Shown here piece by piece: positions 18,694 to 37,828 of a stretch of 64,000 nucleotides of DNA. The position numbers and the translations under genes are program-made. Every line of letters begins with the position of its first letter. The stretch's first letter is position 1. The stretch spans positions 1 to 64,000 of the forward strand of contig NZ_JBEJGX010000003.1 of the NCBI RefSeq assembly GCF_040253635.1, read 5' to 3'. Under the pieces are notes generated by a model. The model ran no database searches, was not told the origin of the DNA, and saw only the letters and a program-made list of their open reading frames with translations. This DNA is from Streptomyces sp. Edi2 (GTDB lineage Bacteria; Actinomycetota; Actinomycetes; Streptomycetales; Streptomycetaceae).

Positions 18694-18701
18694 GTGTCTC
18701 C

Positions 18702-19547: not shown

Positions 19548-19629
19548 GTGGGACAACCTCCCGTAATGGTTGTGGACTTGGACGCGACTGCGCGGCGGTT
19601 GCAGGCCGTCGCGCGGCGGGCGAGGCCCG

Positions 19630-20676: not shown

Positions 20677-21364
20677 GGTTCTCCTTATGAGAGTGGGCTG
20701 TGGTCGACGGCCGGGGCGCTGCAGCGGGCCGGCCGTGACGGGTGTCGCCGGGCTCAGTGGGCGAGGCGGTGGACGCGTCCGCCGCTGCGGGCGGGCACGT
20801 CGGCTACGGGGCCGGATGTGCCGTCCGCCGCGAAGGGACTCGGCAGGCTCGCGGTGTACGACGCGGCGGTGCGGGCACCGGGCGTACCGGACGGGTGCTC
20901 GGGTGGGGCGCGGCGGATCCCGGTGTGCGCACTGGAATCCGACGGCCTGGACCACATACGAAGGGACAGGAAGGGCAGGACGACCTGGACGACGCCGGTG
21001 GGCTGCAGGGACTCCGGTCCTGGCCCGGCGCACTGCCCGGATCTCCGGTTCGACCCTGCGGACCCGTGTGGTCCCGGACCGCCGGAGTCCCGGCCGGACG
21101 GTGGAGGCGCGGGACGGGACTTTCGGTGCTTCGTCGTTGCCTGTGCCCCGGACCCACTGAACGTTAGCAGCGCTGCCTCGCTCCGCGCATGCGTCTGTCG
21201 TCGCGGTCCACCGTGCCACCAGCGCTTTCACGCCCGGTCGCCGGCTGCCGTGGAGGATGACGGCTCCGGGGCCGGTGTCAGACCGTTCGACTGCGTGCGG
21301 TGGACAGTCGAACGTCCTCGGACGGGTCGTACGGGACGGCTCTGTATGGGGTAGGTGCCACGCG
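20677..21364. other. Regulatory region upstream of strB1
   Basis: 688 bases between the strA stop and the strB1 start, with the StrR box at 21285-21313 near its strA end. No gene is recognised, so the strB1 transcript probably has its own StrR-activated promoter and a long untranslated leader. Confidence 0.6.
21285..21313 (-). promoter_or_regulatory. StrR box upstream of strB1
   Basis: GTTCGACTG, eleven bases, CAGTCGAAC: an exact match to the published StrR consensus GTTCGActG-N11-CagTcGAAC. It lies 52 bases after the end of strA and about 610 bases before the strB1 start. Confidence 0.9.
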
Positions 21365-22288
21365 TCAGCGCTCCAGCAGCGCGTCAGCCACAGCGATCTG
21401 GGACGGGGCGATCGTGGTCCGCCCGTCCTCGATGTCCCAGAGTGTGTTCTGCAGCAGCCGGCCCAGGGTCCAGCCGGTCGCGCGCCCACGGTCCAGCTCC
21501 AGCGCCTCGGTCAGCAGATCGAAGCGCCGCCGGACCACCCGCAGGGCGTCACCGGTCGCTGCGATCTGCTCCCAGCCGGTGTCCAGGGCGGGCCACAGGT
21601 CGAAACCCGGGTCACCGACCAGTGGTTCGGGGTCAATGGCCACCCACGGTTCGCGCTCGGCGGCCAGCACGTTGTCGTAGTGCAGGTCCCAGTGCAGCAT
21701 CCGGTCACCGGGCTCACCCGCCAGCTCGTCGACGGCCGACGCCCACCTGTGCAGCCGCTGTCGGTCGGTCGGGTCCGTCAACGAGGCGACGGCCTGCGGC
21801 ACCTCCTTCAGCATGTCGCCCGCGATGTCACCGAGGCCGCGCAGTCCCCCGGGTACCGGGACGGAGTGCAGCCGGGCCAACAGCCCGGCCAGGATGCACA
21901 TGGCCACATCGTCGTCCTCGACGGACGCCAGGGTGCGCGAACCGTCCAGGCGTTCCAGCAGCATGGTGCTGCTCTCCGGGTCGTGATCGAGCAGCCGCAC
22001 CATGCCGTTCCCGTTCCAGGTGCGCAGCCCGATCAGCGCGGCGGTTGTCTCCTCCCGGGGTCTTTGGAGCTTGAGCACGGCCCGGGTGCCGTCCACGCGC
22101 ACCACCGGCACCACGAGCGAGGCCTCACCGGAGCTGAGGTCGCCGTCCCGCTTCAGTTCCCAGCGGTCGAGGAACTCCGTGACCAGTGCGGGCAGTCCTG
22201 CGACCCAGGCCTGTTCCTCTTCACCACCGTTCCTCGTGTACGACCGGGCCAGGGCGTCGGGGATGTCGATTCTTTCCGACGGACTCAT
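21365..22288 (-). CDS. strA: Streptomycin 6-phosphotransferase StrA (APH(6)-type)
   Basis: A 307-residue aminoglycoside phosphotransferase; the length equals that of APH(6)-Ia as I remember it. The ATG at 22288 follows AAGGAAAG. ATP-binding lysine K73 (RAVLKLQRP), the catalytic loop HWDLHYDNVL (H199, D201, N206) and the metal-binding D219 (IDPEPLVGDPGFDLW) are all present. It phosphorylates streptomycin at the 6-hydroxyl, protecting the producer, and creates the phosphorylated intermediate that StrK later activates. It lies 85 bases downstream of strR and is probably cotranscribed with it, which links resistance to pathway activation. Confidence 0.9.
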   Translation of the reverse strand: MSPSERIDIPDALARSYTRNGGEEEQAWVAGLPALVTEFLDRWELKRDGDLSSGEASLVVPVVRVDGTRAVLKLQRPREETTAALIGLRTWNGNGMVRLLDHDPESSTMLLERLDGSRTLASVEDDDVAMCILAGLLARLHSVPVPGGLRGLGDIAGDMLKEVPQAVASLTDPTDRQRLHRWASAVDELAGEPGDRMLHWDLHYDNVLAAEREPWVAIDPEPLVGDPGFDLWPALDTGWEQIAATGDALRVVRRRFDLLTEALELDRGRATGWTLGRLLQNTLWDIEDGRTTIAPSQIAVADALLER

Positions 22289-22373
22289 GGGGGCTTTCCT
22301 TCAGGGAGTGGAGTTTCCCGCCGCGGCCGGCCGCCGGGACCCGAACGGGCCCGGCCGGCGAGGCCGGGCGGCC

Positions 22374-23543
22374 TTACCAGGGTTGAGCGGCCTTGCCGAG
22401 CTCGTGCAGGGTCCGCTCGTCCGGCCGGGCGACCGGAACATCGACGGCACGCCTCAGGCCCGACCGCAGAGCGGCCCGGTGCGGTGGCGCGTCGGCGTCG
22501 TGCAGGGCCTGACCGTCCGACTCGTCGGCGTCGGCCTGCCCCAGTTGCTCGGCCACCCGCTGCCATATCTCGGCGCAGCCACGGGCGAGTTCGGCGATGA
22601 CCTGGACACGATGCGGCGGCACGTTGCCCAGCAGCCGGTCCCATTCCTGGCTGCGCACGGCCACCACGTTGAGCCAGCGCAGCAGCACCCGGCCGTCCTC
22701 GGTGAGCCGTACGGAGGGGTCGCGGCTGAGGTGACGCAGCATCATGGCGCGTGACGGGCCGTTCGCCTCCGCCCGGTCGGCACGGACCCGTGATTGTTGG
22801 GCGGTCGTCGGCTGCCCCTGTTCGCGGCCGCGTTCGGGCAGCGGGCTTTCGCCATGACGCAGCCGCTTGCGGACGTCGGAGGCGGTACTCAGGGACACCC
22901 CGGCCTGTGCGGCGATCTGGCGCAGCGATGCCGAGGGGTTCTCCTGGATCAGACGTCCTGCCAGCTTTCGCCCCTCGGTGGGGTCCAAAGGCCGGGCCCG
23001 CCCGTCGCGGCCGATGCGCACGTTCGACTGCGTATGCCCCGCAGTCGAACAGGACCGCAGGGTTCTGACCGTCTTCGCCGAGATTCCGGTCGCCAGTCCG
23101 ACGGCCCGGTCGGACCAGAGCGGATGGCTGTCGAGGACACGGGTCGCCGCGGCCTTGCGGTCGTCGAGGGAGAGCGGCAGGCCATGGGTGATGTTGGATT
23201 TCACCGCGAAGACGAATGCCTCCTTCTCCTCGCCCTCGAAGTACCGGACCGCGATCTCGGGGGCACCGCGGAGTTCGGTGGCTCGCAGTCTGTGCATTCC
23301 GTCGATGACGCGCTTCGTGGAAGACATCACGACAATGGGTGGAAGTTCCGCTTCGGATTCCGCGAGAGTACGGATGTGCTCGGCGTCCTCACCGGCGCTT
23401 CGTGGGGAGTCTGATGGCAGCAGCGAACCTATCGGCACCATGATCACGTCCGACAATTTCAAGTTGCCCTCGTCCGATTCCCCCGGGCACTCCATTGGCC
23501 GCTCGAGAGCTTCAACGGGACTATTACCTAAATTGGGCTCCAT
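22374..23543 (-). CDS. strR: Pathway-specific activator StrR (ParB-like DNA-binding protein)
   Basis: A 389-residue activator from the ATG at 23543, with AAGGGTAGG upstream. Residues about 35-125 form a ParB/Srx-like domain, including KRVIDGMHRLRAT (77-89), which corresponds to the GERRxRA box of ParB. Two helix-turn-helix segments follow: SDRAVGLATGISAKTVRTLR (144-163) and SLRQIAAQAGVSLSTASDVR (206-225). The last ~45 residues (after DESDGQALHDADAP) look like an added Pro/Arg-rich tail. StrR activates the str/sts genes by binding boxes of the GTTCGAC type. Codon 5 is TTA, so translation may need the bldA leucyl-tRNA. The coding region itself contains a perfect StrR box at 23022-23050. Confidence 0.93.
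   Translation of the reverse strand: MEPNLGNSPVEALERPMECPGESDEGNLKLSDVIMVPIGSLLPSDSPRSAGEDAEHIRTLAESEAELPPIVVMSSTKRVIDGMHRLRATELRGAPEIAVRYFEGEEKEAFVFAVKSNITHGLPLSLDDRKAAATRVLDSHPLWSDRAVGLATGISAKTVRTLRSCSTAGHTQSNVRIGRDGRARPLDPTEGRKLAGRLIQENPSASLRQIAAQAGVSLSTASDVRKRLRHGESPLPERGREQGQPTTAQQSRVRADRAEANGPSRAMMLRHLSRDPSVRLTEDGRVLLRWLNVVAVRSQEWDRLLGNVPPHRVQVIAELARGCAEIWQRVAEQLGQADADESDGQALHDADAPPHRAALRSGLRRAVDVPVARPDERTLHELGKAAQPW
23022..23050. promoter_or_regulatory. StrR box inside the strR coding region
   Basis: GTTCGACTG, eleven bases, CAGTCGAAC, exact match to the StrR consensus, about 495 bases into strR (around codons 165-174). It could mediate autoregulation or a promoter reading into strA. 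Confidence 0.85.
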
Positions 23544-23954
23544 TACCTACCCTTCGGTCATCAGACATTCATGGCAGCACAGAGCGGTTCCTTAACATTT
23601 GCATCTGTCATATGCTTAGCATCCATGAGCGCTTAAGTAAAGCGACTGAAAAGCGATCCTAAAAACAGAATGAGTGTCCGGTTCTTCCCGGCCGCCATGG
23701 GGGCGGGGAAGGCAGAAGAGGCGGTACCGGGCGAGTTCGTGAAGCCGGCTGCGCCCTGCGGCGCCCCTTTCCGGCCACTGCGGACAATCAATTGACCGTC
23801 GGGGCCTCACGCTTCATAAACGAACGGATCGGCCGCGCGGCGGGAACGCGCCACACACCGGCCGGATGGCTTCCACCGAGCCAGCCTGCGGCACGGCCGC
23901 CCCCTCCCCCGCAGCCCGACGCCCGTGTTTCCGAGACCACGCAGGGAGAACGAC
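23544..23954. other. Divergent strR-strD promoter region
   Basis: 411 bases between the divergent starts of strR and strD. The strR-proximal part (23580-23680) is markedly AT-rich for this genome. It contains a sigma70-like promoter facing strD and, on the minus strand, TGGCCGGAAA (23768-23777), which differs from the AdpA consensus TGGCSNGWWY in the last base only. No StrR box was found here. Confidence 0.55.
23792..23820 (+). promoter_or_regulatory. Candidate sigma70-type promoter of strD
   Basis: TTGACC, 17 bases, CATAAA, 135 bases before the strD ATG. The -35 and spacing are good, the -10 is moderate. Untested. Confidence 0.45.
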
Positions 23955-25022
23955 ATGAAAGCGCTTGTATTAGCAGGCGGCGCGGGCACTCGCCTCAGGC
24001 CCATCACACATACGTCCGCAAAGCAACTGGTCCCGGTCGCCAACAAACCCGTCCTGTTCTATGGACTGGAGGCGATCGCCGCAGCCGGCATCACCGATGT
24101 CGGTATCGTCGTCGGCGATACTTTCGGCGAAATCAGCGAGGCCGTGGGGGACGGCTCGAAATTCGGTCTCGATGTGAGTTACATCCCGCAGCCGAAACCA
24201 CTGGGACTCGCACACGCCGTGCTGGTCGCCCGCGATTTCCTGGGCGAGGACGACTTCATCATGTACCTCGGTGACAACTTCGTGGTGGGGGGCATCGAGG
24301 GCCCCATACGGGAGTTCCGCGCCGTCCGGCCGGACGCGCATCTGCTGCTCACCCATGTGTCCGACCCCCGGTCCTTCGGCGTGGCCGAACTGGGCGCGTC
24401 GGGCCGGGTGCGTGGGCTGGAGGAGAAGCCCACCCACCCGAAGAGCGACCTTGCCCTGGTCGGGGTGTACCTCTTCTCCTCCGCGATCCACGAGGCCGTG
24501 CGGGCCGTCAAGCCTTCCTGGCGCGGGGAGCTGGAGATCACCGACGCGGTGCAGTGGCTGATCGACACCGATCGGGACGTACGCTCCACACAGATCACCG
24601 GCTACTGGAAGGACACCGGCAATGTGGCCGACATGCTGGAGGTGAACCGACTCGTGCTGGAGGCCGTCGAGCCGCGCTGCGACGGCCTGGTGGACGAGCA
24701 CAGCGACCTGATCGGCCGGGTCCGGATCGAGGAGGGCGCCGAGGTGCGCAACTCCCGTGTGGTGGGCCCCGCGGTGATCGGTGCGGGCGCGGTCGTGACC
24801 GGCTCCTACGTGGGGCCGTTCACCTCCATCGCCGAGGAGTGCCTCGTCGAGGACAGCGAGGTCGAGTTCTCCATCGTGCTGCGCGGCTCCTCGATCCGCG
24901 GGGTGCGGCGTATCGAAGCGTCGCTCATCGGCCGGCACGTGCGGGTGACGTCCGCGCCGCCGGTGCCGTACGCCCATCGGCTGGTGCTCGGCGACCACAG
25001 CAAAGCGCAGATCTCCTCGTGA
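23955..25022 (+). CDS. strD: Glucose-1-phosphate thymidylyltransferase StrD
   Basis: A 355-residue long-form nucleotidyltransferase that makes dTDP-glucose, the first step to dTDP-dihydrostreptose. The ATG at 23955 has AGGGAGA upstream. The N-terminal signature GGAGTRLRPIT (8-18), the sugar-phosphate-binding VANKPVLFYGLEA and the catalytic YLGDNFVVGG are clear; the C-terminal ~100 residues form the left-handed beta-helix typical of the StrD subtype (VRNSRVVGPAVIG, GSYVGPFTSIAE). Codon 6 is TTA (23970-23972), a second candidate bldA control point next to strR. First gene of strD-strE-strL. Confidence 0.93.
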   Translation: MKALVLAGGAGTRLRPITHTSAKQLVPVANKPVLFYGLEAIAAAGITDVGIVVGDTFGEISEAVGDGSKFGLDVSYIPQPKPLGLAHAVLVARDFLGEDDFIMYLGDNFVVGGIEGPIREFRAVRPDAHLLLTHVSDPRSFGVAELGASGRVRGLEEKPTHPKSDLALVGVYLFSSAIHEAVRAVKPSWRGELEITDAVQWLIDTDRDVRSTQITGYWKDTGNVADMLEVNRLVLEAVEPRCDGLVDEHSDLIGRVRIEEGAEVRNSRVVGPAVIGAGAVVTGSYVGPFTSIAEECLVEDSEVEFSIVLRGSSIRGVRRIEASLIGRHVRVTSAPPVPYAHRLVLGDHSKAQISS

Positions 25023-25133
25023 TGTCCCTCGCCCCGGACCGTCCTGTCCCGGCGCCTCGCCGGCACCCGTCGCGCCGTCGACAGCGCCCGTTCCCACCCG
25101 ACCCGTTCCGACCGGAAAGCGGAGCCCGTTGCC

Positions 25134-26123
25134 ATGACCACACACCTGCTCGTCACCGGAGGGGCCGGTTTCATCGGTTCCCGCTATGTCCGCGCCCTGC
25201 TCGGCCCCGACGGGCCGCCCGATGTGGTGGTGACCGTCCTTGACGCCCTGACCTACGCGGGCAACCCCGCCAATCTGGCCGTCGTGCGCGATCACCCCCG
25301 GTACCGGTTCGTCCAAGGCGACATCTGCGACCTGGTCCTGGTCGACCGGGTGATGGCCGACCAGGACCAGGTCGTGCACTTCGCCGCCGAGTCCCATGTG
25401 GACCGCTCACTGCTCGACGCCTCCGCCTTTGTGCGTACCAATGTGCACGGCACCCAGACCCTGCTGGACGCGGCCCGGCGGCACGGGGTGGCGCCCTTCG
25501 TCCAGGTGTCCACCGACGAGGTCTACGGTTCCATCGAGCACGGCTCGTGGACCGAGGACGAACCACTGCGGCCCAACAGCCCCTACTCCGCGTCCAAGGC
25601 ATCGGCCGAACTGCTCGCCCTGGCCCACCACGTCAGCCACGGCCTCGACGTGCGGGTGACCCGCTGCTCCAACAACTATGGTCCGCACCAGTTCCCGGAG
25701 AAGCTCATCCCCCGGTTCATCACCCTGTTGATGGACGGGCACCGGGTCCCGCTGTACGGGGACGGACTGCACGTGCGGGAATGGCTGCATGTCGACGACC
25801 ACGTACGGGGCATCGAGGCGGTCCGCACCCGCGGCCGGACCGGTCGTGTGTACAACATCGGAGGGGGCGCCGCACTGAGCAACAAGGAGTTGGTGGGACT
25901 GCTGCTGGAGGCGTGCGGTGCCGACTGGAGCAGTGTGGAGCAGGTCGAGGACCGCAAGGGGCACGACCGGCGTTACTCGGTGGACTCCACCCGGATCCAA
26001 CGGGAGCTGGACTTCGTGCCGACCACCGGCCTGGCCGACGGGCTGGCCGCCACCGTCGCCTGGTACCGCGCGCACCGCTCCTGGTGGGAACCACTGCTCC
26101 CGGCCGGCTCGCTGCCCGCCTGA
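25134..26123 (+). CDS. strE: dTDP-glucose 4,6-dehydratase StrE
   Basis: A 329-residue extended short-chain dehydrogenase that converts dTDP-glucose to dTDP-4-keto-6-deoxyglucose using bound NAD. Rossmann motif TGGAGFIGS (8-16), the dehydratase signature STDEVYGSIEHG, and the catalytic YSASKASAE (YxxxK) are present. It begins 111 bases after strD. The length matches the family (about 330). Confidence 0.93.
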   Translation: MTTHLLVTGGAGFIGSRYVRALLGPDGPPDVVVTVLDALTYAGNPANLAVVRDHPRYRFVQGDICDLVLVDRVMADQDQVVHFAAESHVDRSLLDASAFVRTNVHGTQTLLDAARRHGVAPFVQVSTDEVYGSIEHGSWTEDEPLRPNSPYSASKASAELLALAHHVSHGLDVRVTRCSNNYGPHQFPEKLIPRFITLLMDGHRVPLYGDGLHVREWLHVDDHVRGIEAVRTRGRTGRVYNIGGGAALSNKELVGLLLEACGADWSSVEQVEDRKGHDRRYSVDSTRIQRELDFVPTTGLADGLAATVAWYRAHRSWWEPLLPAGSLPA

Positions 26124-26185
26124 ACGGGGCGTCCCCATCCCGTCCGCCGCACGAGGCCGGCACGTACCTCTCGGAGACCGACACC

Positions 26186-27100
26186 ATGTCCCCGTACCCT
26201 CGCCCGCGTTGGCTCGTCACCGGTGCGTCCGGCATGCTGGGGCGCGAGCTCACCACCCTGCTGGTCCGTCGGGGAGCCGCGGTGACCGCGCTCGGCCGCA
26301 GCGCCCTGGACCTCACGAACGGCGCTGCCGTGCGGTCCGCCCTGGCGCACCACCGGCCGGCGGTGGTGGTCAATTGCGCGGCGTGGACCGCGGTCGACGC
26401 GGCCGAGTCGGAGCCGTCCCGGGCCATGGCGGTCAACGGCGACGGGCCGCGTCATCTGGCGCAGGCATGCCGCGCCCTGGGCGCCGTACTTCTCCAGTTG
26501 TCGACCGACTACGTGTTCGCCGGATCAGCCGGGCGGCCGTACCGGGAAGACGACCCCACCGGTCCGCGCACGGTGTACGGCCGCACCAAACGGGCCGGGG
26601 AGCGGGCGGTGCTGGACATCCTTCCGGAGGCCGGTTACGTGGTCCGCACGGCGTGGTTGTACGGGGCGAGCGGGCCCAACTTCGTGGCCACGATGATCCG
26701 GCTCGAGGCCGGGCAGGAGGCCGTGCCGGTCGTGGACGACCAGCACGGCCAGCCGACCTGGACCGCGGACCTCGCCGACCGGCTGGCGGCACTGGGCTCG
26801 GCAGCGCTGGCAGGAACGGCACCGGCCGGGATCTACCACGCGACCAACACGGGCGGCGCCACGTGGTACACGCTGGCCCGGGAGACGTTCCGACTGCTGG
26901 GCGCCGACCCCGACCGGGTCCGGCCCACCACCAGCCTGGCGCTGGCCCGGCCGGCCACCCGGCCCGGGTACAGCGTGCTGGACCAGCCCCGCTGGCGGGA
27001 GGCGGGGCTCGCGCCGCTGCGGAACTGGCACACGGCCCTGGCGGAGGCGTTCCCCGCACTCTGTGAGGCCGTCGGGCGTCCGGTGCCTCGGCTGCTGTGA
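26186..27100 (+). CDS. strL: dTDP-4-dehydrorhamnose reductase-type enzyme StrL
   Basis: A 304-residue RmlD-family reductase; the ATG at 26186 begins MSPYPRPRWLVTGASGMLGR. Nucleotide-binding TGASGMLG, STDYVFAG, and the YGRTKRAGE catalytic YxxxK are visible. With StrM it forms dTDP-dihydrostreptose, where reduction is coupled to ring contraction. It follows strE by 62 bases and ends the rightward strD-E-L transcript at a perfect hairpin. Confidence 0.9.
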   Translation: MSPYPRPRWLVTGASGMLGRELTTLLVRRGAAVTALGRSALDLTNGAAVRSALAHHRPAVVVNCAAWTAVDAAESEPSRAMAVNGDGPRHLAQACRALGAVLLQLSTDYVFAGSAGRPYREDDPTGPRTVYGRTKRAGERAVLDILPEAGYVVRTAWLYGASGPNFVATMIRLEAGQEAVPVVDDQHGQPTWTADLADRLAALGSAALAGTAPAGIYHATNTGGATWYTLARETFRLLGADPDRVRPTTSLALARPATRPGYSVLDQPRWREAGLAPLRNWHTALAEAFPALCEAVGRPVPRLL

Positions 27101-27155
27101 CCTGCCGGCCCGTGTGCCGGGGAGCACCGCCCGTACCAGGACCCAGGCATACGAA

Positions 27156-27182
27156 GGCCCACCGTGAGAGTCACGGTGGGCC
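27156..27182. terminator. Bidirectional hairpin between strL and strM
   Basis: GGCCCACCGTGA, loop GAG, TCACGGTGGGCC: a perfect 12-base-pair stem with a three-base loop, between the convergent stops of strL (27100) and strM (27197). It can serve both transcripts. Confidence 0.85.
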
Positions 27183-27196
27183 GTTACCTCGGGTGC

Positions 27197-27799
27197 TCAG
27201 ACCACGTTCCGCTTGCGCAGGGAGCGGTGGAAGGCGGCGCATTCGTCGTAGGACGGCAGCAGGCCACGCCGCTCCATCTCCGCGATGCCCGGGGCCTGTT
27301 GGTCCTTCTCGGAGAGCACCGGCTCGATGGGCTCGGGCCACGCGATGGCGAGGTCGGGGTCGAGGGGGTGGACCCCGTGCTCCCGCCCCGAGGCGTAGCC
27401 CTGCGAGGTGAGGTAGACGACGGTTGCGTCGTCGGTGAGGGCCATGAAGGCGTGGCCGAGCCCTGCCTCGACGTACAGGCTGCGGTGCGGGTCGTCGAGT
27501 CGGACGGCCTCCCAGGAGCGGTACGTGGGCGAGCCGGTCCGGATGTCCACCACCACGTCCAGCACGGCGCCGCTGAGACAGGTGACGTACTTGGCCTGGC
27601 CGGGCGGGACCTGTGCGAAGTGCACCCCGCGCAGCACCCCTTGCCGCGAGACGGACCGGTTGACCTGAGCGACCCCGGGTTCGTAGCCGAGCACAGCACT
27701 CAGCGGCCGGGCGCTGTACAGCTCCTGGAACTCGCCCCGGCCGTCGGCGAACGCACGGGTCTCCGACAGCCAGGCGCCCTGCACACTGAGCGGACGCAT
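27197..27799 (-). CDS. strM: dTDP-4-dehydrorhamnose 3,5-epimerase StrM
   Basis: A 200-residue RmlC-type cupin, on the opposite strand to strD-E-L. It epimerises dTDP-4-keto-6-deoxyglucose at C3 and C5 before StrL acts. The catalytic histidine H60 lies in GVLRGVHFAQ; other family blocks are VDIRTGSPTYRSWEAVRLDD and EAGLGHAFMALTDDATVVYL. The strB2 relic lies directly upstream on the same strand, then strN. Confidence 0.9.
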   Translation of the reverse strand: MRPLSVQGAWLSETRAFADGRGEFQELYSARPLSAVLGYEPGVAQVNRSVSRQGVLRGVHFAQVPPGQAKYVTCLSGAVLDVVVDIRTGSPTYRSWEAVRLDDPHRSLYVEAGLGHAFMALTDDATVVYLTSQGYASGREHGVHPLDPDLAIAWPEPIEPVLSEKDQQAPGIAEMERRGLLPSYDECAAFHRSLRKRNVV

Positions 27800-27902
27800 G
27801 TGCGCCTCCTCTCACAATGGTTCAGTCGATGTGTGACGGCGCCGTCGGTGGCCGTGGGGCTCCGCAGCAACCGACGACGTGGGGACGGCGGGACCGTCGG
27901 GG

Positions 27903-28142
27903 TCAGAAGCGGTGGGTCTCCGGGCTCCGGTTCTGCGGATGACGGGGGATGCCGTGGAAGCTCCGCGAGCATCCAGGAGCGGGTCAGCCGCAGCAGCACG
28001 TCCACGCCGTGGTCGCTCCAGCACCCGCATCAGCGTCGTGTTTGCGGTCCACGGGGACCGGGCCGGAGACCCGGCAGGCTCATCCCGATCCAGGACGAGG
28101 GTGGAGCACGGGTCCTTCGTTGTGGACACTGCCCAGGCTCAC
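27903..28142 (-). pseudogene. strB2: Relic of strB2 (second amidinotransferase), internally deleted
   Basis: The start is preserved: GTG at 28142 after GAAGG, giving VSLGSVHNE, matching MSLVNVHNE of StrB1, followed by a stop after 20 codons. Then the 3' end of an amidinotransferase is readable in pieces: PVPVDRKH (StrB1 AVVDRRQ), TLMRVLE (ELIKLLE), HGVDVLLRLTRSWML (HGMNVLPLQLTHSRTL), FHGIPRHPQNRSPETHRF then a stop (FHCATLDVRRTGTLQTYQF then a stop). Three single-base frame changes separate these pieces, the catalytic FHC is FHG, and about 800 bases of the middle are missing. The position between strM and strN is where I recall strB2 in S. griseus. Confidence 0.8.
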
Positions 28143-28197
28143 GGCTGACCCTTCGGTACGAGGTGGTCACGGGAAGGATGCGGCGGGGTAGGCGGGT

Positions 28198-29130
28198 TCA
28201 GGTCTGCGGGAGGTAGTGCGCCAGTCGGCCCCACATGGCGTCGTCGTCGGCATCTCCGGCGTGGGGGCCGGTGAACCGGGTGGCGTACTCGGCGATCTCG
28301 GCGAGCGTCCAGCGGAGTTCATAGAACCGCAGGAACACCGGGCGGCCCTGGGGGGCGATGCCGAACACCCGGGTCAGGGCGGCCCAGTCGCGCTCCGGCG
28401 GGGCCCACATTGCCCCGCCCCAGTCGATGATGTCCACGCCCTGTCCGAACAGGACGTTGGTCAAGCTGGGGTCGCCATGGGTCAGCGCGGGGCGTTCGCC
28501 GTGCCACCGCGCGGTGCACCGGTCGGCCACCCGGGCGGCCTCCTCGCGCAGCGCGGTGAGGCGGCCCCACCGCCGGGCCACCAGGTCGGCCAGCCGGCCG
28601 CCGTAGGGTCCGCACTGGGCGGCGGCGCCGTTCAGCGCGGCCTGCAGCGCCTTGTCGAGGTCGTTGTCGAAGAGGAACCGGAAGTCCTCTGTGGGCAGCT
28701 CGACAGTCCGGGAGGCGGGCGGTTCAAAAGTGTGCACCTCATGCAACTGGCGTATCAGCAGGTCGAGCTGGCCGGGGGTGGGGGGTGCGGAGGAGGCAGT
28801 GGCACGCTCGACGTAGGGGAACGTCACGACGGGGAAGTCCGCGATCCGGTGGACCACCCGTCCGTCGTTCCCGGCGAGCGGGGCCAGGACGAACTCCTTC
28901 CCGCTCTCGCGCAGCATCAGCGGCACTTCGTAAGCCCCGGGGAAATGGCCGTCCAAATCGCGGCGGATGCTGATCCACAGCGGTCCGCAGCGGTATGACC
29001 AGCTGTCCTCGCCGAGTGGGAAGAACTCCAGCTCAGGCAATTCTCGGCCGCTCGGGAAGAAATCCTGGAAGTTTTCCTCGACAAGCCGGAGAAGGCTCCG
29101 GCGTTCCACGAACGTGTTCTCCAAGAGCAT
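28198..29130 (-). CDS. strN: Aminoglycoside-phosphotransferase-like kinase StrN
   Basis: About 310 residues from the ATG at 29130 (MLLENTFVERRSLLRLVEEN); a GTG at 29145 that would add a TTA codon is the alternative. Neither has a clear ribosome binding site, so the mRNA may be leaderless. The APH fold shows in LTHGDPSLTNVLF (catalytic loop) and VDIIDWGGAMWAPPERDWAA (metal-binding Asp). StrN is the proposed second cyclitol kinase, phosphorylating the guanidino-amino-inositol before the second amidinotransfer. Resistance function is also conceivable because relatives phosphorylate spectinomycin. It is divergent from strO. Confidence 0.8.
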   Translation of the reverse strand: MLLENTFVERRSLLRLVEENFQDFFPSGRELPELEFFPLGEDSWSYRCGPLWISIRRDLDGHFPGAYEVPLMLRESGKEFVLAPLAGNDGRVVHRIADFPVVTFPYVERATASSAPPTPGQLDLLIRQLHEVHTFEPPASRTVELPTEDFRFLFDNDLDKALQAALNGAAAQCGPYGGRLADLVARRWGRLTALREEAARVADRCTARWHGERPALTHGDPSLTNVLFGQGVDIIDWGGAMWAPPERDWAALTRVFGIAPQGRPVFLRFYELRWTLAEIAEYATRFTGPHAGDADDDAMWGRLAHYLPQT

Positions 29131-29243
29131 GCCAGAGACTAACACCGTGGGCGGCCATGAGGCTTTTCCCGGAAAGGCGTTCAACTGACTGCCGGGCACA
29201 TGCGGACAATCGCCGGGCAACGGCCCACGGATATGGTGGGCTG

Positions 29244-30017
29244 ATGGCTGATGACAGCGATGTGCGCCTCGCGCACCGACTGGCGGAAATGGCTGGCGAA
29301 TTGGCTCTGGGATTCTTTGGACGGCAGCCGACCGCGCGGCGCAAGAGCGACGGAAGCCCGGTCAGCGAGGCCGATCTCGCCGTGGAGAGAGCCTTGTTGG
29401 CGGTACTGGCGGCGGAACGGCCCGGGGACGCGGTGCTGAGCGAGGAGAGCGGCGCGCTCGGGACCGCGTCCGGGCGCCGTTGGATCCTGGATCCCATCGA
29501 CGGCACGATCCCCTTCCTGGCCGGAGAGCACGGATGGGGTACCCATGTGGCCCTGGAGGTCGATGGGGAGCTGCGGGCCGCCGTGCTGAGCCGACCCACC
29601 GAAGGTGCCAAGTGGTGGGCGGTTCGGGATGGGGGCGCGTTCGCGTCCACCGGTGGCGCTGCGCTGTCGGCGGCACGTGCACTGCGCATACCGGAGGCGG
29701 GCGTACCACTTCGGACGGCCCGGGTGGGTGGCTTCCTGATGCCGGACTCCCCCGTCGAGCCGGTGCGCGGCCGGATGAGCTGGATCGAGTCCTCGGTGTG
29801 CCTGGTTGCCGATCTGCTGGAGGGCCGTGCCGACGCGGTGGTCGACGAGGGCGGCCACGTCTGGGATCGGGCGCCGGGCGCCCTGCTGGTGCGGGAGGCC
29901 GGTGGTCGGGTTGACGACCTGCGCGGGGGCAGCCGGCTGGACGGGCGCTGGCTGGTGTACGCGGCGGAAGGGGTCGCGGACGAACTGACCGGGCTGCTGC
30001 ATGACGCGGGTGCGTAA
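29244..30017 (+). CDS. strO: Inositol-monophosphatase-family phosphatase StrO
   Basis: A 257-residue Mg-dependent phosphatase. The ATG at 29244 gives MADDSDVRLAHRLAEMAGEL. Metal-site motifs are SEESGA (E67, E68), WILDPIDGT (DPIDGT, 83-88) and HVWDRAPGALLVREAGG near 212. It is proposed to dephosphorylate N-amidino-scyllo-inosamine-4-phosphate, opening the second half of streptidine synthesis. It stands alone on the plus strand between strN and stsA, with about 110 bases to the divergent strN start and a perfect hairpin behind it. Confidence 0.87.
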   Translation: MADDSDVRLAHRLAEMAGELALGFFGRQPTARRKSDGSPVSEADLAVERALLAVLAAERPGDAVLSEESGALGTASGRRWILDPIDGTIPFLAGEHGWGTHVALEVDGELRAAVLSRPTEGAKWWAVRDGGAFASTGGAALSAARALRIPEAGVPLRTARVGGFLMPDSPVEPVRGRMSWIESSVCLVADLLEGRADAVVDEGGHVWDRAPGALLVREAGGRVDDLRGGSRLDGRWLVYAAEGVADELTGLLHDAGA

Positions 30018-30024
30018 CGGCTTG

Positions 30025-30052
30025 GGTGGCGCCGGGCCGGGCCGGCGCCACC
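30025..30052. terminator. Bidirectional hairpin between strO and stsA
   Basis: GGTGGCGCCGG, loop GCCGGG, CCGGCGCCACC: a perfect 11-base-pair stem seven bases after the strO stop, and 136 bases beyond the stsA stop on the other strand. Confidence 0.8.
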
Positions 30053-30187
30053 GTAGCGCGTCCCGCAGCGTCCTGGGCACACCGGCCACGGGGCGGCCGT
30101 CCCGCCCGGTGTGCCGGGTGCCCGGCAGTTCCTGCCGGGATGCTGCCGTGCCGGTCGTGCGGACTGCTGCCGTGTCTGACGGTGCCT

Positions 30188-31420
30188 TCAGGGCAGCGCC
30201 TCGCCCTTGACCGCACGGCGGAAGGTGTCGGCGGCGTGGTCAATCTCGGCGTTCGAGGAGTCGGCGTGGACGCCGGTTCCGGGGCCGAGGTAGCCGTCGG
30301 AGAGGCCGGTGGCGAGGGCGAGGGAGCGGGCGAGGATGCTGTCCGTGCGGGGCAGCGCGCCAGGTTCGAAGGGATGCGCGGGGCGCCCGCCCGGGGCGCG
30401 GAACGGCACGGTGGAGCGGTCGCCGCGGCCGAATGCGGTGAGCGCCGGCAGCCCGGCGTAGTAGTGCGTCGGCGAGTCGAGGAGTGTTCGGGTTCCGAGC
30501 CGGTCGGCGACGTCCTGGGCGTGCGCGGCGTCCTCGAAGACGTACACGGCGACGGTGCCGCACTCCCCCGCAGGGTCGTGCAGGGTCCTGCCGCGCACCC
30601 CGGGCAGTTCACCGACCGCCTCGACCAGTCGGCGTTTGACATCGCGGATGCGGCCGAGGATCAGGTCGAGCTTGTTGAGCTGCGCGAGCGCCACGGCGGC
30701 GTTCAGTTCGCCGAGGCCCAGGTTCATACCGAGCAGCAGGTCGCCCTCGCCGCGGTCCTGGCGGTAGGGGAACCAGCCCTGGTCGTGGAAGGAGTAGGCC
30801 CGCTGGAAGACCAGCGGGGCGTCGCTGAGCACGAACCCGCCCTGCAGCGAGGTGATCACCTTGTAGTGGTTGAGGGAGAATGCACCGGCGCTGCCCAGGG
30901 TGCCGAGCGGCCGACCCCGGTAGCTGCCGCCGGCGCTTTGCGCGCAGTCTTCCAGCAGTTGCAGTCCGTGCTTGTCGGCGAGGTCGCGCAGCGCGGTCAT
31001 GTCGGCGGGTGCGCCCAGCATGTGCACGGGCATGATCGCCCGAGTGCGGGGGGTGATCCTGGCCCGTACGTCGGCCGGGTCCAGGGTGAGGGACTCGTCG
31101 ACCTCGGCGAGCACCACATCGGCACCGCAGTGCAGTACTGCCGCGATCGAGGCGACGAACATGTAGCCGGGCACGATGACCTCGTCCCCCGGTCCGATGC
31201 CGAGTCCCACGAGGGCCGCGACGAGCGCGGAGGTGCCGCTGTTAACGCCGAGGCAGTGGGCGGTGCCGAAGCGTTCGGCCGCCGCTCGTTCGAAGCGGCG
31301 GACCCACTCCCCCTCACCGGGGTCGTCGAACGCCTCGCGGCGGGCGTACCAGCGGTCGAGCACAGCCATGACATTGGCTCGCTCCTCGTCGCCGAAGAAG
31401 CGGTATCCCGGTCCCGGCAC
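30188..31420 (-). CDS. stsA: L-alanine:N-amidino-3-keto-scyllo-inosamine aminotransferase StsA
   Basis: A 410-residue DegT/StrS-family aminotransferase. I chose the GTG at 31420 (MPGPGYRFFGDEERANVMAV) because GGAGG lies seven bases upstream; frames upstream to 31456 lack such a site. PLP lysine K187 (SLNHYKVITSLQGG) and D158 (LEDCAQSAGG) are present. It installs the second amino group of streptidine on the ketone made by StsB, which lies just upstream (115-base gap) and is probably cotranscribed. Confidence 0.85.
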   Translation of the reverse strand: MPGPGYRFFGDEERANVMAVLDRWYARREAFDDPGEGEWVRRFERAAAERFGTAHCLGVNSGTSALVAALVGLGIGPGDEVIVPGYMFVASIAAVLHCGADVVLAEVDESLTLDPADVRARITPRTRAIMPVHMLGAPADMTALRDLADKHGLQLLEDCAQSAGGSYRGRPLGTLGSAGAFSLNHYKVITSLQGGFVLSDAPLVFQRAYSFHDQGWFPYRQDRGEGDLLLGMNLGLGELNAAVALAQLNKLDLILGRIRDVKRRLVEAVGELPGVRGRTLHDPAGECGTVAVYVFEDAAHAQDVADRLGTRTLLDSPTHYYAGLPALTAFGRGDRSTVPFRAPGGRPAHPFEPGALPRTDSILARSLALATGLSDGYLGPGTGVHADSSNAEIDHAADTFRRAVKGEALP

Positions 31421-31534
31421 TGTAGTTCCTCCCTGGGTGTGACGCGGTGGGCTCATGGGGCGCCGGCGGACGTCGGGGCCTCGGTATGCGGGCGCCGGTG
31501 CACCTGAGGGTGCTGCTGTGCGCAGCGCCGGCAT

Positions 31535-33055
31535 TCAGGCGCCGGCCAGTAGGGCGGCAAGCCGGCGGGAGAGCGCAATGGTGGTCAGGGACGGGTTGGC
31601 GGCGCCCAGGCGGGGGAAGACGGCCGGGCCCGCGGCGTAGAGACCGGGCAGCGCGGTGAAGGCGTGGCGCGCATCGAGCAGCCGGCCGAGCGGCAGGCTG
31701 CCGCCCTCGTGGTCCTCGGTGCCGAGCAGGCTCGTCCAGGTCTCGGGCCTGCCGGCCGGCTGGCGGCGGGTGCGGTCGGGCAGCACCCGGGTGTTGTCGC
31801 GGTCGGCGTCGCCGAAGTCGGTGAACTCCAGGGGGGTGGCGGGCGCCCCCAGTTCGGCGGCGGCCACCGCCCAGAAGTCGCGCAGCAGGTCGCGCTGCCC
31901 GCTGATCATCTTGCGGTCCTCGGGGAGCAGTTCGGTGTGGACGCGGGCCTGCCAGGGCGGTTCGTCGGAGGGCCGGCACTCCACCGCGCTGTGTTCGTTG
32001 GGGAGTTGCTCGCCGGTGACCCGTACATCCAGCAGTGCCCGGCCGGGCCCGTCGTCGTGGATGTCCATCCGTAGGTAGGAGCGCAGCGCCGGGTCGGTGG
32101 GCAGGTGGTACGAGCCGGGTGCGGGCAGACGGTCGGCCGGAAGCCGGGCCACAAAGCCCTGCACGATGTGGTCGGCGAGGCCGCCGAGCCGGGGTTGGGG
32201 CAGGGCGTCCGCCTCGGTGAGGGCATGCACGGCCAGCCGGGTGCTCTCCACGGTGCCTGCGCACAGCACCACGGTGTCGGCGGCGATCGTCGTCAGGGTG
32301 CCGTAGGCGGTGCGTGCCAGGACCCCTCGGGCCCGTCCGTCGCGCACGTCCACGGCGAGCACCTCGGTGTCGCAGTGCACCTGGACGCCGGGCGGCGGGG
32401 CGGGCCGGCCGGCGGGCCGGCGCCAGGCGTCCAGGGCGGTGTACGCCTCCCAGCGGTCGCCGGGCAGACGCCGGCAGGCGCGGGGCAACGGGCGGAACTC
32501 GTGGCCTCCGAGGACGGTCCGGGCGGGTTGGGCGGGGTCCCACAGCCTGCCGCCGCTCCAGGCGGTCAGGTCGGCGGTGACCCGCGCGTACCAGGAGGGC
32601 TTGTCGGCGACACCGGTGGTCAGGTCGGCGACGACCTCGGCCGGCCACCCGGGCGGGTGCAGCGCCCAGTCCTCCAGTGGCAGCACCACCCCGTGCCAGT
32701 ACAGGGACCGGCCGCCCAGTCGGCGGCGCAGCCCGGAGATACCGGTGTAGTGCGGGGGTGTCTCGGACCGCCAGGGCCGGTGGAAGTGCGGGTCGTGCTG
32801 CGGCGCGAAGACGATCTCGGTGGCGGTCTTCTGATGGTGCGTCATGTGAATGTGTGCCAGATCCTCGCCGGGCCCCGCCTCCAGCAGCAGCACGTCCTGG
32901 ACGCCGTGGCCGGCCAGCGCGGCGGCGAGTTCGACGCCGGCGAGCCCGCCGCCGACGATCACGGTCCGGGCATGGGTCGGGATGGGCCGGGAGGAGCCCG
33001 GCCCGCCGGTCCGTGGTCGGGCCGCGTCGTGCTTCGGTGCGGGGTGGCCGGACAT
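31535..33055 (-). CDS. stsB: GMC-family oxidoreductase StsB
   Basis: A 506-residue flavoprotein. The ATG at 33055 follows GAGGAG. The FAD motif VIVGGGLAGVELAAAL lies at 33-48 and the C-terminal GMC substrate/flavin block (FPRLGAANPSLTTIALSRRL) near 480. It is the proposed dehydrogenase that converts N-amidino-scyllo-inosamine to its 3-keto form, the substrate of StsA. It is divergent from stsC; a StrR box sits midway, so both directions are probably activated by StrR. Confidence 0.87.
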   Translation of the reverse strand: MSGHPAPKHDAARPRTGGPGSSRPIPTHARTVIVGGGLAGVELAAALAGHGVQDVLLLEAGPGEDLAHIHMTHHQKTATEIVFAPQHDPHFHRPWRSETPPHYTGISGLRRRLGGRSLYWHGVVLPLEDWALHPPGWPAEVVADLTTGVADKPSWYARVTADLTAWSGGRLWDPAQPARTVLGGHEFRPLPRACRRLPGDRWEAYTALDAWRRPAGRPAPPPGVQVHCDTEVLAVDVRDGRARGVLARTAYGTLTTIAADTVVLCAGTVESTRLAVHALTEADALPQPRLGGLADHIVQGFVARLPADRLPAPGSYHLPTDPALRSYLRMDIHDDGPGRALLDVRVTGEQLPNEHSAVECRPSDEPPWQARVHTELLPEDRKMISGQRDLLRDFWAVAAAELGAPATPLEFTDFGDADRDNTRVLPDRTRRQPAGRPETWTSLLGTEDHEGGSLPLGRLLDARHAFTALPGLYAAGPAVFPRLGAANPSLTTIALSRRLAALLAGA

Positions 33056-33145
33056 CTCTGACTCCTCGCCTGATGTTTTCCCGCCTCTGGCCGCGAAGAG
33101 GCGACCTGATTTCCAGGCGGCCGGTTCGCTGCAGCGTACCCATCT

Positions 33146-33174
33146 GTTCGACTGCGTGCGTTCCTCGGTCGAAC
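33146..33174. promoter_or_regulatory. StrR box between stsB and stsC
   Basis: GTTCGACTG, eleven bases, CGGTCGAAC, one mismatch to the consensus right half. It is 90 bases from the stsB start and 106 bases from the stsC start, well placed to serve both. Confidence 0.85.
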
Positions 33175-33280
33175 GCCTCAGCTGTTCACGGACCGCGCGT
33201 CGTCGGGACTGTGGCGTACGACTGACGGAGGTGCGTAAATTCCGACTTCATCCGTCGCATTCTCGAAAGTGAGGGCAATC

Positions 33281-34555
33281 ATGGGAAATTCACTGGCGAT
33301 CTCCGGTGGACCGCGTCTGTCCGACCGCGAGTGGCCGCGTTGGCCGCAGCCGGGCGAACGTGCGCTGAAAAGCCTCGAAGACGTATTGATGAGCGGCCGT
33401 TGGACGATTAGCTGCGCCTATCAGGGGCGGCAATCCTACGAGCGTCAATTCGCGGCCGCATTCGCAGACTACTGCCGTTCGGCGATGTGCGTGCCGATGG
33501 CGACGGGAACCGCCTCGCTGGCCATCGCGCTGGAGGCGTGCGGGGTCGGTGCCGGGGACGAGGTGATCGTGCCCGGGCTGAGCTGGGTGGCGTCCGCGTC
33601 GGCCGTGCTCGGCATCAACGCCGTACCGGTGCTGGTGGACATCGACCCGGACACTTACTGCCTGGACCCGGCGGCCGTGGAGGCGGCGATCACCGAGCGG
33701 ACCCAGGCCATCACCGTGGTGCACGCCTACTCGGCCGTCGCGGACCTGGACTCACTGCTGGACATCGCCCAGCGCCACGGTCTGCCGGTGATCGAGGACT
33801 GCGCGCACGCACACGGCGCCAGTTACGGCAACTGGCCGGTAGGTGCGTTCGGCATGGCCGGGGTCTTCAGCATGCAGGGCAGCAAGTTGCTGACGTGCGG
33901 CGAGGGCGGTGCGCTGGTGACCGACGACGCGGACATCGCGATGCGCGCGGAGCATCTGCGCGCGGACGGGCGGGTGGTGCGCCGCGATCCGGTGGAGGTG
34001 GGCGAGATGGAGCTGGAGGAGACCGGTCAGCTGATGGGCAGCAACGCCTGTCTGTCGGAGTTCCACGCGGCGGTGCTGCTGGATCAGCTGGCCCTGCTCG
34101 ACGGGCAGAACGCCCGCCGGGTGCGGGCCGCGGACCACCTCTCCGACCGGCTCGGCGAAATAGGGATGGTGGTGCAGAACACCTCCCCGGGGACCACCGA
34201 CCGTAGCTACTACCGCTACATGGTGCGGCTGCCCGACGAGGTGCTGGCCGTGGCACCGGTGGAGCGGATCGCCCGCGCACTCACCGCCGAATTGGGTTTC
34301 GCGGTGACGCAGACCCATCGGCCGCTGAACGACAATCCGCTTCACCGGCCTGCCTCACGCCGGCGGTTCGCCACCGATGCGCAGTTCCTGGAGAGGGTGG
34401 CCCCGTCGCGGTTCGATCTCCCGGTGGCCAAGCGCATCTACGGAAGCGTGGTGAGCTTCGGTCACGAGGTGCTCCTGGCCCCGCTCGACGCCATCGACGA
34501 CATCGCGCGGGCGTTCAGGAAGGTCCTGGACAACGTCCGGGAGGTCGCCCGCTGA
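33281..34555 (+). CDS. stsC: L-glutamine:scyllo-inosose aminotransferase StsC
   Basis: A 424-residue PLP enzyme that makes scyllo-inosamine, the first committed aminocyclitol step; the length equals that of StsC as I remember it. The ATG at 33281 follows GTGAGGG. PLP lysine K202 (FSMQGSKLLTCGEGG), D173 (IEDCAHAHGA) and the WVASASAV loop fit the inosose-aminotransferase branch (relatives include BtrR and NeoB). It is the only rightward gene between the StrR box at 33.1 kb and strU; its stop faces stsD at six bases, so the two are convergent. Confidence 0.92.
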   Translation: MGNSLAISGGPRLSDREWPRWPQPGERALKSLEDVLMSGRWTISCAYQGRQSYERQFAAAFADYCRSAMCVPMATGTASLAIALEACGVGAGDEVIVPGLSWVASASAVLGINAVPVLVDIDPDTYCLDPAAVEAAITERTQAITVVHAYSAVADLDSLLDIAQRHGLPVIEDCAHAHGASYGNWPVGAFGMAGVFSMQGSKLLTCGEGGALVTDDADIAMRAEHLRADGRVVRRDPVEVGEMELEETGQLMGSNACLSEFHAAVLLDQLALLDGQNARRVRAADHLSDRLGEIGMVVQNTSPGTTDRSYYRYMVRLPDEVLAVAPVERIARALTAELGFAVTQTHRPLNDNPLHRPASRRRFATDAQFLERVAPSRFDLPVAKRIYGSVVSFGHEVLLAPLDAIDDIARAFRKVLDNVREVAR

Positions 34556-34561
34556 CGGACG

Positions 34562-35206
34562 TCACGGCATGGACGGCAGCACGTCGCCCCGCACCGCCCG
34601 GCCGAGCCGGTGGGCGAAGACCTCCGGGGTGGACACGTGCAGGGTGTGCATCCCCAGCTCGGCCCCCACTCGCAGCACCGTGGCGCGGTCGTCGATGAGC
34701 AGCGTCTCGGCGGCCGTCGCACGGCACCCGTGCAGTGCCGCGGTGAAGAACGACAGTGCCGGTTTCACGCGGCCCACGCGCCAGGACGAGCACAGCATGT
34801 CGAACAGCGCGAAGTGTCCGTAGGTCTCGTCCTTCAGGCGGTCCCAGTGCTCGGCCTCGTTGTTGGTGAGGACCACCGTCACCTCCGGCCGCTCCTGGCG
34901 TAGTTCGCGCAGCGCGCGGAAGCTGTCGTGGTATGGGCGGACGCTGCCCAGGTAGGCGCGGTCCAGCCAGCGCGTTTCTGTGGGTGTGTCGGCCGAGAGT
35001 CTGTGTCCGTCCGCGACGAGGCGGGCGAGCACTTGGTGCACATGACGCTCGCCGCTCTCGTATTCGGGCGCCGACGCCTCGACGCGCCGGGCGATTTCCG
35101 CCCGGTCCGCGCCGTAGCGATCGGCAAGCCGTGCAAGGAAGTCCGTCTCTTCGTTGATGTTGTTGTAGAGCACGCCGCCGACGTCCACGAACAGCGTTCG
35201 AATCAT
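34562..35206 (-). CDS. stsD: HAD-superfamily hydrolase StsD
   Basis: 214 residues from the ATG at 35206, preceded by AGAGGA. HAD motifs: FVDVGGVLY (nucleophile Asp; the usual second Asp is Gly here), TVVLTNNE (motif II Thr), GRVKPALSF (motif III Lys) and LLIDDRATVL (motif IV). The missing second Asp of motif I suggests either an altered phosphatase or a non-phosphatase hydrolase. The role in the cluster is unknown; sugar-phosphate removal in the N-methyl-L-glucosamine branch is possible. It is the last gene of the leftward strV-W-stsG-F-E-D run. Confidence 0.8.
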   Translation of the reverse strand: MIRTLFVDVGGVLYNNINEETDFLARLADRYGADRAEIARRVEASAPEYESGERHVHQVLARLVADGHRLSADTPTETRWLDRAYLGSVRPYHDSFRALRELRQERPEVTVVLTNNEAEHWDRLKDETYGHFALFDMLCSSWRVGRVKPALSFFTAALHGCRATAAETLLIDDRATVLRVGAELGMHTLHVSTPEVFAHRLGRAVRGDVLPSMP

Positions 35207-35247
35207 CGCAAGTCCTCTCTGCCCGCAGGGCCGGTGACGGCCTCGGC

Positions 35248-36240
35248 TCAGCGCTCCAGCAGCGGGGCGCAGCAGCCGCCGTCCGTGTGCGCCCAGGCGA
35301 CGAGCATCCGGTAGGGCTCCCCTTGCCGGTACGCCTGTCTGCCGGGTTTGGCCAGCTCGCGCTCCAGGCCCCAGGTCTCCAGCTGGATCGAGTAGCCGGT
35401 GAGCAGGTCGATGTCGGCTTCGGTGTGCAGCAGGGGGCGAGCCAGGTCAGCCACCGCTTCCTGCAGCAGTGTCCGGTCGGCCTGCTCCTCGGCGGTCGGC
35501 TGCGCGTCTGCCTGCACGGGTGCGTAGGCCATTTTGACCAGTTCGTTCAGGTCCAGTTGCACCGGCGCGAGGACCGCGAACTCGAAGTCCAGCAGGGACA
35601 CCACGTCAGTGCCGTCCCACAGCGCGTTGACCGGGGAGAGATCGCCGTGATTGAGCACGGAGGCGGCATCGGCCAGGGCCGCCCAGTGGCGGTCGAGCGC
35701 GGCGCTCAGCCGTTCGTGTTCGGTGTCGGTGAGCACCCCGGCCGTGTGCAGCCGCAGCAGGCCGTCCTCGGCCTCGTTGGGGGATTGCGCGTAGAAGGGG
35801 TTGCGGGTGCGGGCCACGGGCGCGGCGGAGGCCGGGTCGACGCGGTGCACCGCCCGGGCCCGCTCCCACAGTTGCCGGGTCGCGGTCACGCGCCGTTCAC
35901 CATCGAGCGTAGGCCAGGCCTCGTCCAGGCTGGTCGCGGGGATCTCCCGGGTGACCACCCATTCGCAGCCGCGGGTCGTGCCGAAGTCCAGCACCGCCGG
36001 ATAGCCCACCTCAGGGGGCAGCAGCCGGGCCAGCCGGGTCTCACGCACCAGGTCCTGGGCTGCGGTTGAGCCCGCGACGCGTACGGCGAGTCCGCCGCCC
36101 AGCCAGGTGGCGTTGGTCCAGCCGGCCGCGCGGCGGGCGGTCGCGAAGTCCACGCCGTGGCGCCGGAAGATCTCGGCTGCTACGGCGGCGGTCTGTGCGG
36201 CGCGCGCCGCGCGTTCGCGGCCGGTCGTGGTGCCGGTCAC
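35248..36240 (-). CDS. stsE: scyllo-Inosamine 4-kinase StsE (APH fold)
   Basis: 330 residues; the GTG at 36240 overlaps the stsF stop by four bases (GTGA), which fixes the start and indicates translational coupling. Catalytic loop LNHGDLSPVNALW and metal-binding DFEFA (VVSLLDFEFAVLAP) are typical of aminoglycoside/choline kinase folds. It is the proposed first cyclitol kinase, giving scyllo-inosamine-4-phosphate for StrB1. Confidence 0.85.
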   Translation of the reverse strand: MTGTTTGRERAARAAQTAAVAAEIFRRHGVDFATARRAAGWTNATWLGGGLAVRVAGSTAAQDLVRETRLARLLPPEVGYPAVLDFGTTRGCEWVVTREIPATSLDEAWPTLDGERRVTATRQLWERARAVHRVDPASAAPVARTRNPFYAQSPNEAEDGLLRLHTAGVLTDTEHERLSAALDRHWAALADAASVLNHGDLSPVNALWDGTDVVSLLDFEFAVLAPVQLDLNELVKMAYAPVQADAQPTAEEQADRTLLQEAVADLARPLLHTEADIDLLTGYSIQLETWGLERELAKPGRQAYRQGEPYRMLVAWAHTDGGCCAPLLER

Positions 36241-36926: not shown

Positions 36927-37001
36927 AGAAACCTCTTTCGCGGATGGTCGTCACGGTGGCTGTCTTGGGGACGGTCGGGCCCGGGGGGATGCGCGGGCGG
37001 C

Positions 37002-37763: not shown

Positions 37764-37828
37764 ATGCTCAGGCTAGAACTGGAGCCGCATTTGCCGCAAT
37801 GATTTGATTCACCGTGCGGGCGGGGGAT

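Follow-up and report, generated by a model that had tools for sequence, protein, structure and literature searches.

Streptomycin contains two guanidino groups, and the cluster of S. griseus holds two amidinotransferase genes, of which strB2 has so far been regarded as the one likely to carry out the second transfer. What becomes of this transfer in a streptomycin-type cluster that has lost strB2? The question is raised by the window, a stretch of 64,000 nucleotides from Streptomyces sp. Edi2. An earlier note on this DNA had reported that strB2 survives here only as a 240-bp scar between strM and strN of an otherwise complete cluster, and had left two answers: either StrB1 performs both transfers, or the product carries a single guanidino group. 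Our search found no paper on strB2 as a streptomycin amidinotransferase; the older streptomycin literature was beyond the reach of this search.

Apart from strB2, the cluster is indeed complete. It is collinear with that of S. griseus, and the S. griseus genes in this stretch, strB2 excepted, have near-full-length open counterparts in the window. The features needed here are:

11486..43170, streptomycin-type cluster, collinear with S. griseus NCTC13033
19630..20676, minus strand, strB1, 348 aa, intact, with D179, H227 and C332 kept
27197..27799, minus strand, strM, dTDP-4-dehydrorhamnose 3,5-epimerase family (PF00908), 87% to S. griseus
28198..29145, minus strand, strN, APH-like kinase family (PF01636), open, 78% to S. 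griseus
30188..31420, minus strand, stsA, aminotransferase, intact, 89% to S. griseus
31535..33055, minus strand, stsB, GMC/FAD-like dehydrogenase, intact, 79% to S. griseus
33281..34555, plus strand, stsC, aminotransferase, intact, 87% to S. griseus

The genes stsA, stsB and strN, which the earlier note had called intact, are all open in the window, as in a streptomycin (streptidine) cluster. For the sts genes we assume the usual names and roles, with stsA as the aminotransferase of the second amination, stsC as that of the first, and stsB likewise taken by its presumed name and role. Window StrB1 is 91% identical to S. griseus StrB1, aligns with the structure PDB 1bwd over residues 2-348, and has the Asp-His-Cys triad in a full-length protein. 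By its residues, it is catalytically complete, and no other inosamine-phosphate amidinotransferase of this kind was found in the cluster. Since no Pfam family was hit by StrB1 (0 families), relatives of StrB1 and StrB2 were sought by protein searches. In this genome, PF02274 matched an arginine deiminase-like gene and one DDAH-like gene.

The surroundings of the cluster offer a few further observations. The window forms the first 64 kb of contig C3, which extends beyond 7 Mb, and the cluster may be subtelomeric. No short inverted repeats (at least 14 nt, within 60 nt) were detected in the first 6 kb of the window. At the cluster edge lies a second StrR-like regulator (43797-44846, minus strand), which shares 47% identity with S. 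griseus StrR across 303 residues, and downstream of the cluster a short DDE transposase frame (48892-49332, minus strand; PF01609, 146 aa). Two tandem arrays with 297-bp units are found at 59228-61658 (8.2 copies) and 63323-63989 (2.2 copies).

The scar itself can be resolved into the following pieces:

27903..28142, minus strand, strB2 scar, 240 bp, between strN and strM, by DNA alignment to strB2
28109..28142, minus strand, 5' remnant with GTG start and VSLGSVHNE, corresponding to strB2 nt 1-36 (92% over 36 columns, one 2-nt deletion)
28093..28106, minus strand, possible strB2 island of 14 nt, corresponding to nt 693-706 (exact match, collinear but weak, E 0.04)
27906..28092, minus strand, 3' remnant, corresponding to strB2 nt 850-1050 with seven small indels, by DNA alignment
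27951..27959, minus strand, FHG at the position of the catalytic FHC, from the scar translation
27903-27905, minus strand, stop codon TGA

The GTG at 28142 opens the scar and gives VSLGSVHNE, while the amidinotransferase C-terminus is spread over pieces in other frames, FHG and HGVDVLLRLTRS among them, the latter read from 28011 in a second frame. These coordinates and motifs agree with the preserved start, large internal deletion and shifted C-terminal pieces described from the letters. The alignment to strB2 and strB1 at DNA level, proposed as a check, was run with ten strB1/strB2 genes. Streptomyces sp. WAC05374 gave the best match with its strB2, at 78% over 202 columns (150 bits, E 5e-39), and the first 36 nt of that gene matched at 92% (50 bits). 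Six strB2 genes scored between 76 and 150 bits, S. griseus strB2 being 76% identical over 209 nt, against 64, 64 and 51 bits and an identity of about 69-70% for three strB1 genes. The top score of 500 dinucleotide shuffles of the scar, compared with the same ten genes, was 39.2 bits. Moreover, the scar sits between strN and strM, as strB2 does in nine loci (L007, L009, L010, L011, L017, L020, L078, L079 and L080). This confirms that 27903-28142 is a strB2 remnant. It shares its place, DNA similarity and the FHG at the catalytic site with S. griseus StrB2, which however is an open frame of 350 aa, whereas the scar is 240 bp with frameshifts. StrB1, the L-arginine:inosamine-phosphate amidinotransferase of PDB 1bwd, is present in the window as an intact copy of its own, and the scar is nearer to strB2 and has no Cys at the site.

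How long ago was the gene lost? Nucleotides 37-849 of strB2, about 0.8 kb, are gone from the scar, perhaps save the 14-nt island. In addition, the scar has eight small indels relative to WAC05374 strB2, seven of them frame-shifting, and thus holds no full-length open frame. In the 3' piece, mismatches at the first, second and third codon positions number 10/10/8 against WAC05374, 12/10/10 against S. cavernae, 12/9/13 against S. griseus and 14/13/10 against S. noursei. Intact strB2 genes compared with that of WAC05374 differ by 7/3/17 (S. griseus), 4/5/12 (S. noursei) and 2/3/6 (S. cavernae), and window strB1 differs from WAC05374 strB1 by 19/12/57. Because the scar mismatches are spread evenly over the codon positions, they point to an old neutral loss, not to a sequencing slip or an assembly error; the gene has long been drifting free of constraint. 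Among the 296 relatives searched, no close kin was found whose strB2 is less decayed; the nearest StrB1 to that of the window, at 97%, is P0018 of Streptomyces sp. NBC_00400.

A gene so long in neutral drift, in a window at a contig end where the cluster may be subtelomeric, could also be just the first casualty of a cluster that is silent or dying as a whole. The remaining genes, however, have open frames and run collinear with those of S. griseus, and strB1, strM, strN, stsA, stsB and stsC differ from their S. griseus counterparts mostly at third positions. The ratio of differences at positions 1 and 2 to those at position 3 is 0.23 for strB1, 0.38 for strM, 0.43 for strN, 0.29 for stsA, 0.48 for stsB and 0.33 for stsC. 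We therefore give a silent or dying cluster only a small chance.

The FHG in place of FHC had been read as a further sign of decay. The motif is present in the scar, but it is not a lost site of the window copy: Cys at the residue aligned to StrB1 C332 is found in none of the 13 distinct readable StrB2, S. griseus included, while all 15 StrB1 rows have it. Ten of the 13 carry Gly at this residue (S. griseus, McG3, S. noursei, WAC05374, S. bikiniensis, the window scar, P0003, P0009, P0032 and P0106), and the others Ser (S. cavernae), Asp (S. humidus) or Arg (a metagenome-assembled genome, MAG); P0003, P0009, P0032 and P0106 are counted as StrB2 by tree placement, not by gene context. The broken strB2 copy of S. 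sparsogenes reads FQR at the site and has no Cys either. Cys is present in the gene that S. mashuensis has at the strB2 position; this gene, only a possible StrB2, stands outside the 13. When StrB2 was used as the query, the best 120 of 1580 proteins at E ≤ 1e-60 comprised 115 with Cys and five with Gly, these five all being StrB2. A profile search placed the same five first and the S. mashuensis protein sixth.

No StrB2-specific substitute Cys was found: the one at position 71, common to the four StrB2 compared, also occurs in five of 14 StrB1. The equivalents of D108, D179 and H227 are retained and C332 is lost in StrB2 of S. griseus, S. noursei, S. cavernae and WAC05374. In a StrB2 subgroup formed by S. 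bikiniensis (L007:2038-3078), P0032 and P0106, the D108 and H227 equivalents are lost as well, with the frame still open. The catalytic residues of the related human AGAT are Asp254, His303 and Cys407, according to the parts of PMC3684758 consulted; S. griseus StrB2 has Gly opposite Cys407. The Gly codons of StrB2 differ at the third position, which would fit one old change to Gly in this StrB2 group better than many recent ones. FHG is thus the usual StrB2 state and no defect of the window copy. Public records named 'inosamine-phosphate amidinotransferase 1' nevertheless include Cys-less proteins (P0002, P0009, P0032 and P0106). A database entry may, we assume, already mention the missing Cys of S. 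griseus StrB2.

Losses of strB2 are not confined to the window. With StrB1 as the query, a scan of GTDB species genomes found 41 loci, of which 14 (L007-L020, StrB1 80-93% identical) carry further str genes and were followed as str clusters, making 15 with the window; L022-L047 were left out. At L021, from Herbidospora (StrB1 69%), the queries used revealed no further str gene, and this locus became the outgroup of the first tree. Genus searches over 392 genomes returned, apart from the window, four genomes at 80% or above; their StrB1 coordinates coincide with those of genomes of L013, L016, L017 and L018, and they added none.

Seven of the 15 clusters have an open-frame, Cys-less strB2 (S. 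bikiniensis, McG3, S. griseus, S. noursei, S. cavernae, WAC05374 and one MAG). The strB2 of S. humidus resembles the scar in its place, heavy changes and loss of catalytic residues (C332, H227 and the D179 segment are changed or gone), but is still one shortened open frame of 289 aa, whereas the frame in the window is destroyed; no strI-like gene turned up in the S. humidus stretches compared. In S. sparsogenes, strB2 is broken by frameshifts and a deletion. In S. griseocarneus, where the strN and strM matches lie about 70 nt apart, and in S. bluensis, where StrB1 is kept, the strN-strM interval contains no strB2. It is also absent in Streptomyces sp. H27-S2, where StrB1 is the sole genome match; strM and strE were likewise not found in this 21-kb locus. 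In S. graminilatus, strB2 was not found on a contig that ends before the site, and the genome has one match. S. mashuensis has its Cys-bearing gene (L018:10001-11041) at the strB2 place as the sole amidinotransferase match of the genome at E ≤ 1e-10.

Some of these species are relevant for the product. S. humidus, S. mashuensis and S. griseocarneus appear as streptomycin producers in Table 3 of PMC8143475, a list at the level of species and not of the sequenced strains. The S. humidus genome holds, at E ≤ 1e-10, only strB1 and two pieces of its own strB2, and that of S. griseocarneus holds strB1 plus a partial match at 38%. Should the species entries also apply to the strains that were sequenced, a single Cys-bearing amidinotransferase would suffice for both transfers.

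Can the product of the window cluster nonetheless have a single guanidino group, the second transfer having been lost with strB2? Bluensomycin, produced by S. bluensis, has one guanidino group, and its cluster resembles that of the window in that strB2 is gone and StrB1 is kept. Yet the two clusters differ where it would matter. The S. bluensis genome had no match to stsB (E ≤ 1e-30) or to stsA (E ≤ 1e-60), retaining stsC among the aminotransferases, and it encodes a PF02543 carbamoyltransferase between strW and stsG (C30:45028-45966). The window keeps stsA and stsB, both open, and no PF02543 carbamoyltransferase was found in its cluster, the only match of the genome lying 2.5 Mb away. All six genomes searched for stsA and stsB, S. 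bluensis included, are without a usable classical strB2, and the five others (S. humidus, S. griseocarneus, S. mashuensis, H27-S2 and S. sparsogenes) each have one stsA and one stsB. In addition, no readable StrB2 has the catalytic Cys, and both S. griseocarneus, without strB2, and S. humidus, with a dead one, are among the producers listed in PMC8143475. Therefore, a single-guanidino product from the window cluster is unlikely, and we see little prospect for it. The alternatives had been rightly posed in the earlier note; the first is favored and the second is not.

An amidinotransferase encoded elsewhere could take over the second transfer. The remaining genome was searched, as had also been proposed, and no second strB2 was found in the 9.8-Mb assembly of six contigs. 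The only other significant StrB1 relative, on another contig (C2:148171-149262), is full length with an intact FHC; the third match is at chance level (E 0.56, 41 residues). Distant relatives at 30-43% also occur in S. griseocarneus, S. bikiniensis, S. sparsogenes, S. bluensis, S. griseus and the MAG. Neither the window genome nor that of S. griseocarneus is therefore strictly a one-enzyme genome. However, the C2 protein is only 36% identical to StrB1 and has a different neighborhood, and eight genomes (S. mashuensis, S. humidus, S. cavernae, WAC05374, McG3, S. noursei, S. graminilatus and H27-S2) have no such extra gene at E ≤ 1e-10. A part of this enzyme in the second transfer is, to our judgment, the least probable of the explanations considered. 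Its gene (L082:8172-9272) lies next to those for TauD and a fatty acid desaturase and to class II tRNA-synthetase-like and DDAH-like genes, and may belong to a further cluster for a guanidino natural product.

The best-supported mechanism is that StrB1 performs both amidino transfers, which we regard as very probable from the comparison of sequences. A duplication would have given two amidinotransferase genes, strB1 and strB2, and StrB2 would have lost its catalytic Cys in an ancestor shared by most clusters in which strB2 persists. Thereafter, StrB1 would have made both transfers from arginine on its own, with scyllo-inosamine phosphate as the first acceptor and, later, the second amino group formed via stsA, stsB and strN as the other. 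StrB2, now optional, would have been deleted or broken in several lineages, the window included, where the scar would mark the end stage. Since StrB2 lacks the catalytic Cys wherever it is readable, its loss should not remove a transfer, and the product of the window cluster should keep two guanidino groups. On this view, strB2 is dispensable. The sequences show the scar, the lack of Cys in readable StrB2, the repeated decay or absence of strB2, a single catalytically complete gene in each cluster and the intact stsA and stsB, whereas the activity of StrB1 on the second substrate, the expression of the cluster and its product are what we infer here.

In five of the clusters that keep the gene, StrB2 is still constrained and is not mere debris. 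Codon models in IQ-TREE for five clusters (S. griseus, McG3, S. cavernae, WAC05374 and S. noursei) gave an omega of 0.031 for strB1, the lowest of four genes, and of 0.069 for strB2, near strM (0.064) and strE (0.054). An omega of 1 was rejected for strB2 in the same five clusters (2dlnL 444, codon-model grid). NG86 ratios were higher than the codon-model values and agreed only broadly, with strB1 lowest and strB2 within the range of strM, strE, strN and aph; in that comparison, the strN row of WAC05374 included some sequence from upstream of its start, and one stop in it was skipped. Adding S. bikiniensis raised the strB2 omega to 0.093. Selection thus still acts on Cys-less StrB2 in some lineages, whereas in others it is relaxed or the gene has been lost.

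This constraint, together with the retained D108, D179 and H227 equivalents in four StrB2 without C332, suggests that Cys-less StrB2 might, where it is kept, assist or regulate StrB1 without catalysis of its own, perhaps as the subunit of a mixed dimer or as a substrate holder, and that lineages without it manage with StrB1 alone. The repeated loss or decay of strB2, also in species listed as producers in PMC8143475, speaks against such a role, as do the missing D108 and H227 and the higher omega with S. bikiniensis. We hold this proposal as tentative; it would add to two transfers by StrB1 and not exclude them. Somewhat more credible, though still short of an even chance, is the wider reading that StrB2 is a conserved pseudoenzyme, which lost its nucleophile and kept a selected role in binding, assembly or channelling beside StrB1, with StrB1 as the sole two-step amidinotransferase and the window as a natural strB2 knockout.

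The history of the S. mashuensis gene is less clear. In the first tree, all StrB2 rows and this gene fell on one side of a branch with a support of 93/93, and in the second, which lacked the rows of S. humidus and the MAG and had different outgroup rows, it moved to the StrB1 side with low support (85/52). AU tests rejected neither placement (p 0.63 with StrB2, 0.36 with StrB1). Its place between strN and strM favors StrB2. Because the gene shifts sides between the two trees, we do not claim a reciprocal loss in S. mashuensis.

What looked like the oddity of one strain points to a more general situation, in which StrB2 lacks the known catalytic residue wherever it could be read here and the window stands as one natural loss among several. 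Whether Cys-less StrB2 acts as a pseudoenzyme is a separate question, raised by its constraint. Two transfers by one enzyme on two substrates become directly testable, and the comparison points to natural strB2 knockouts.
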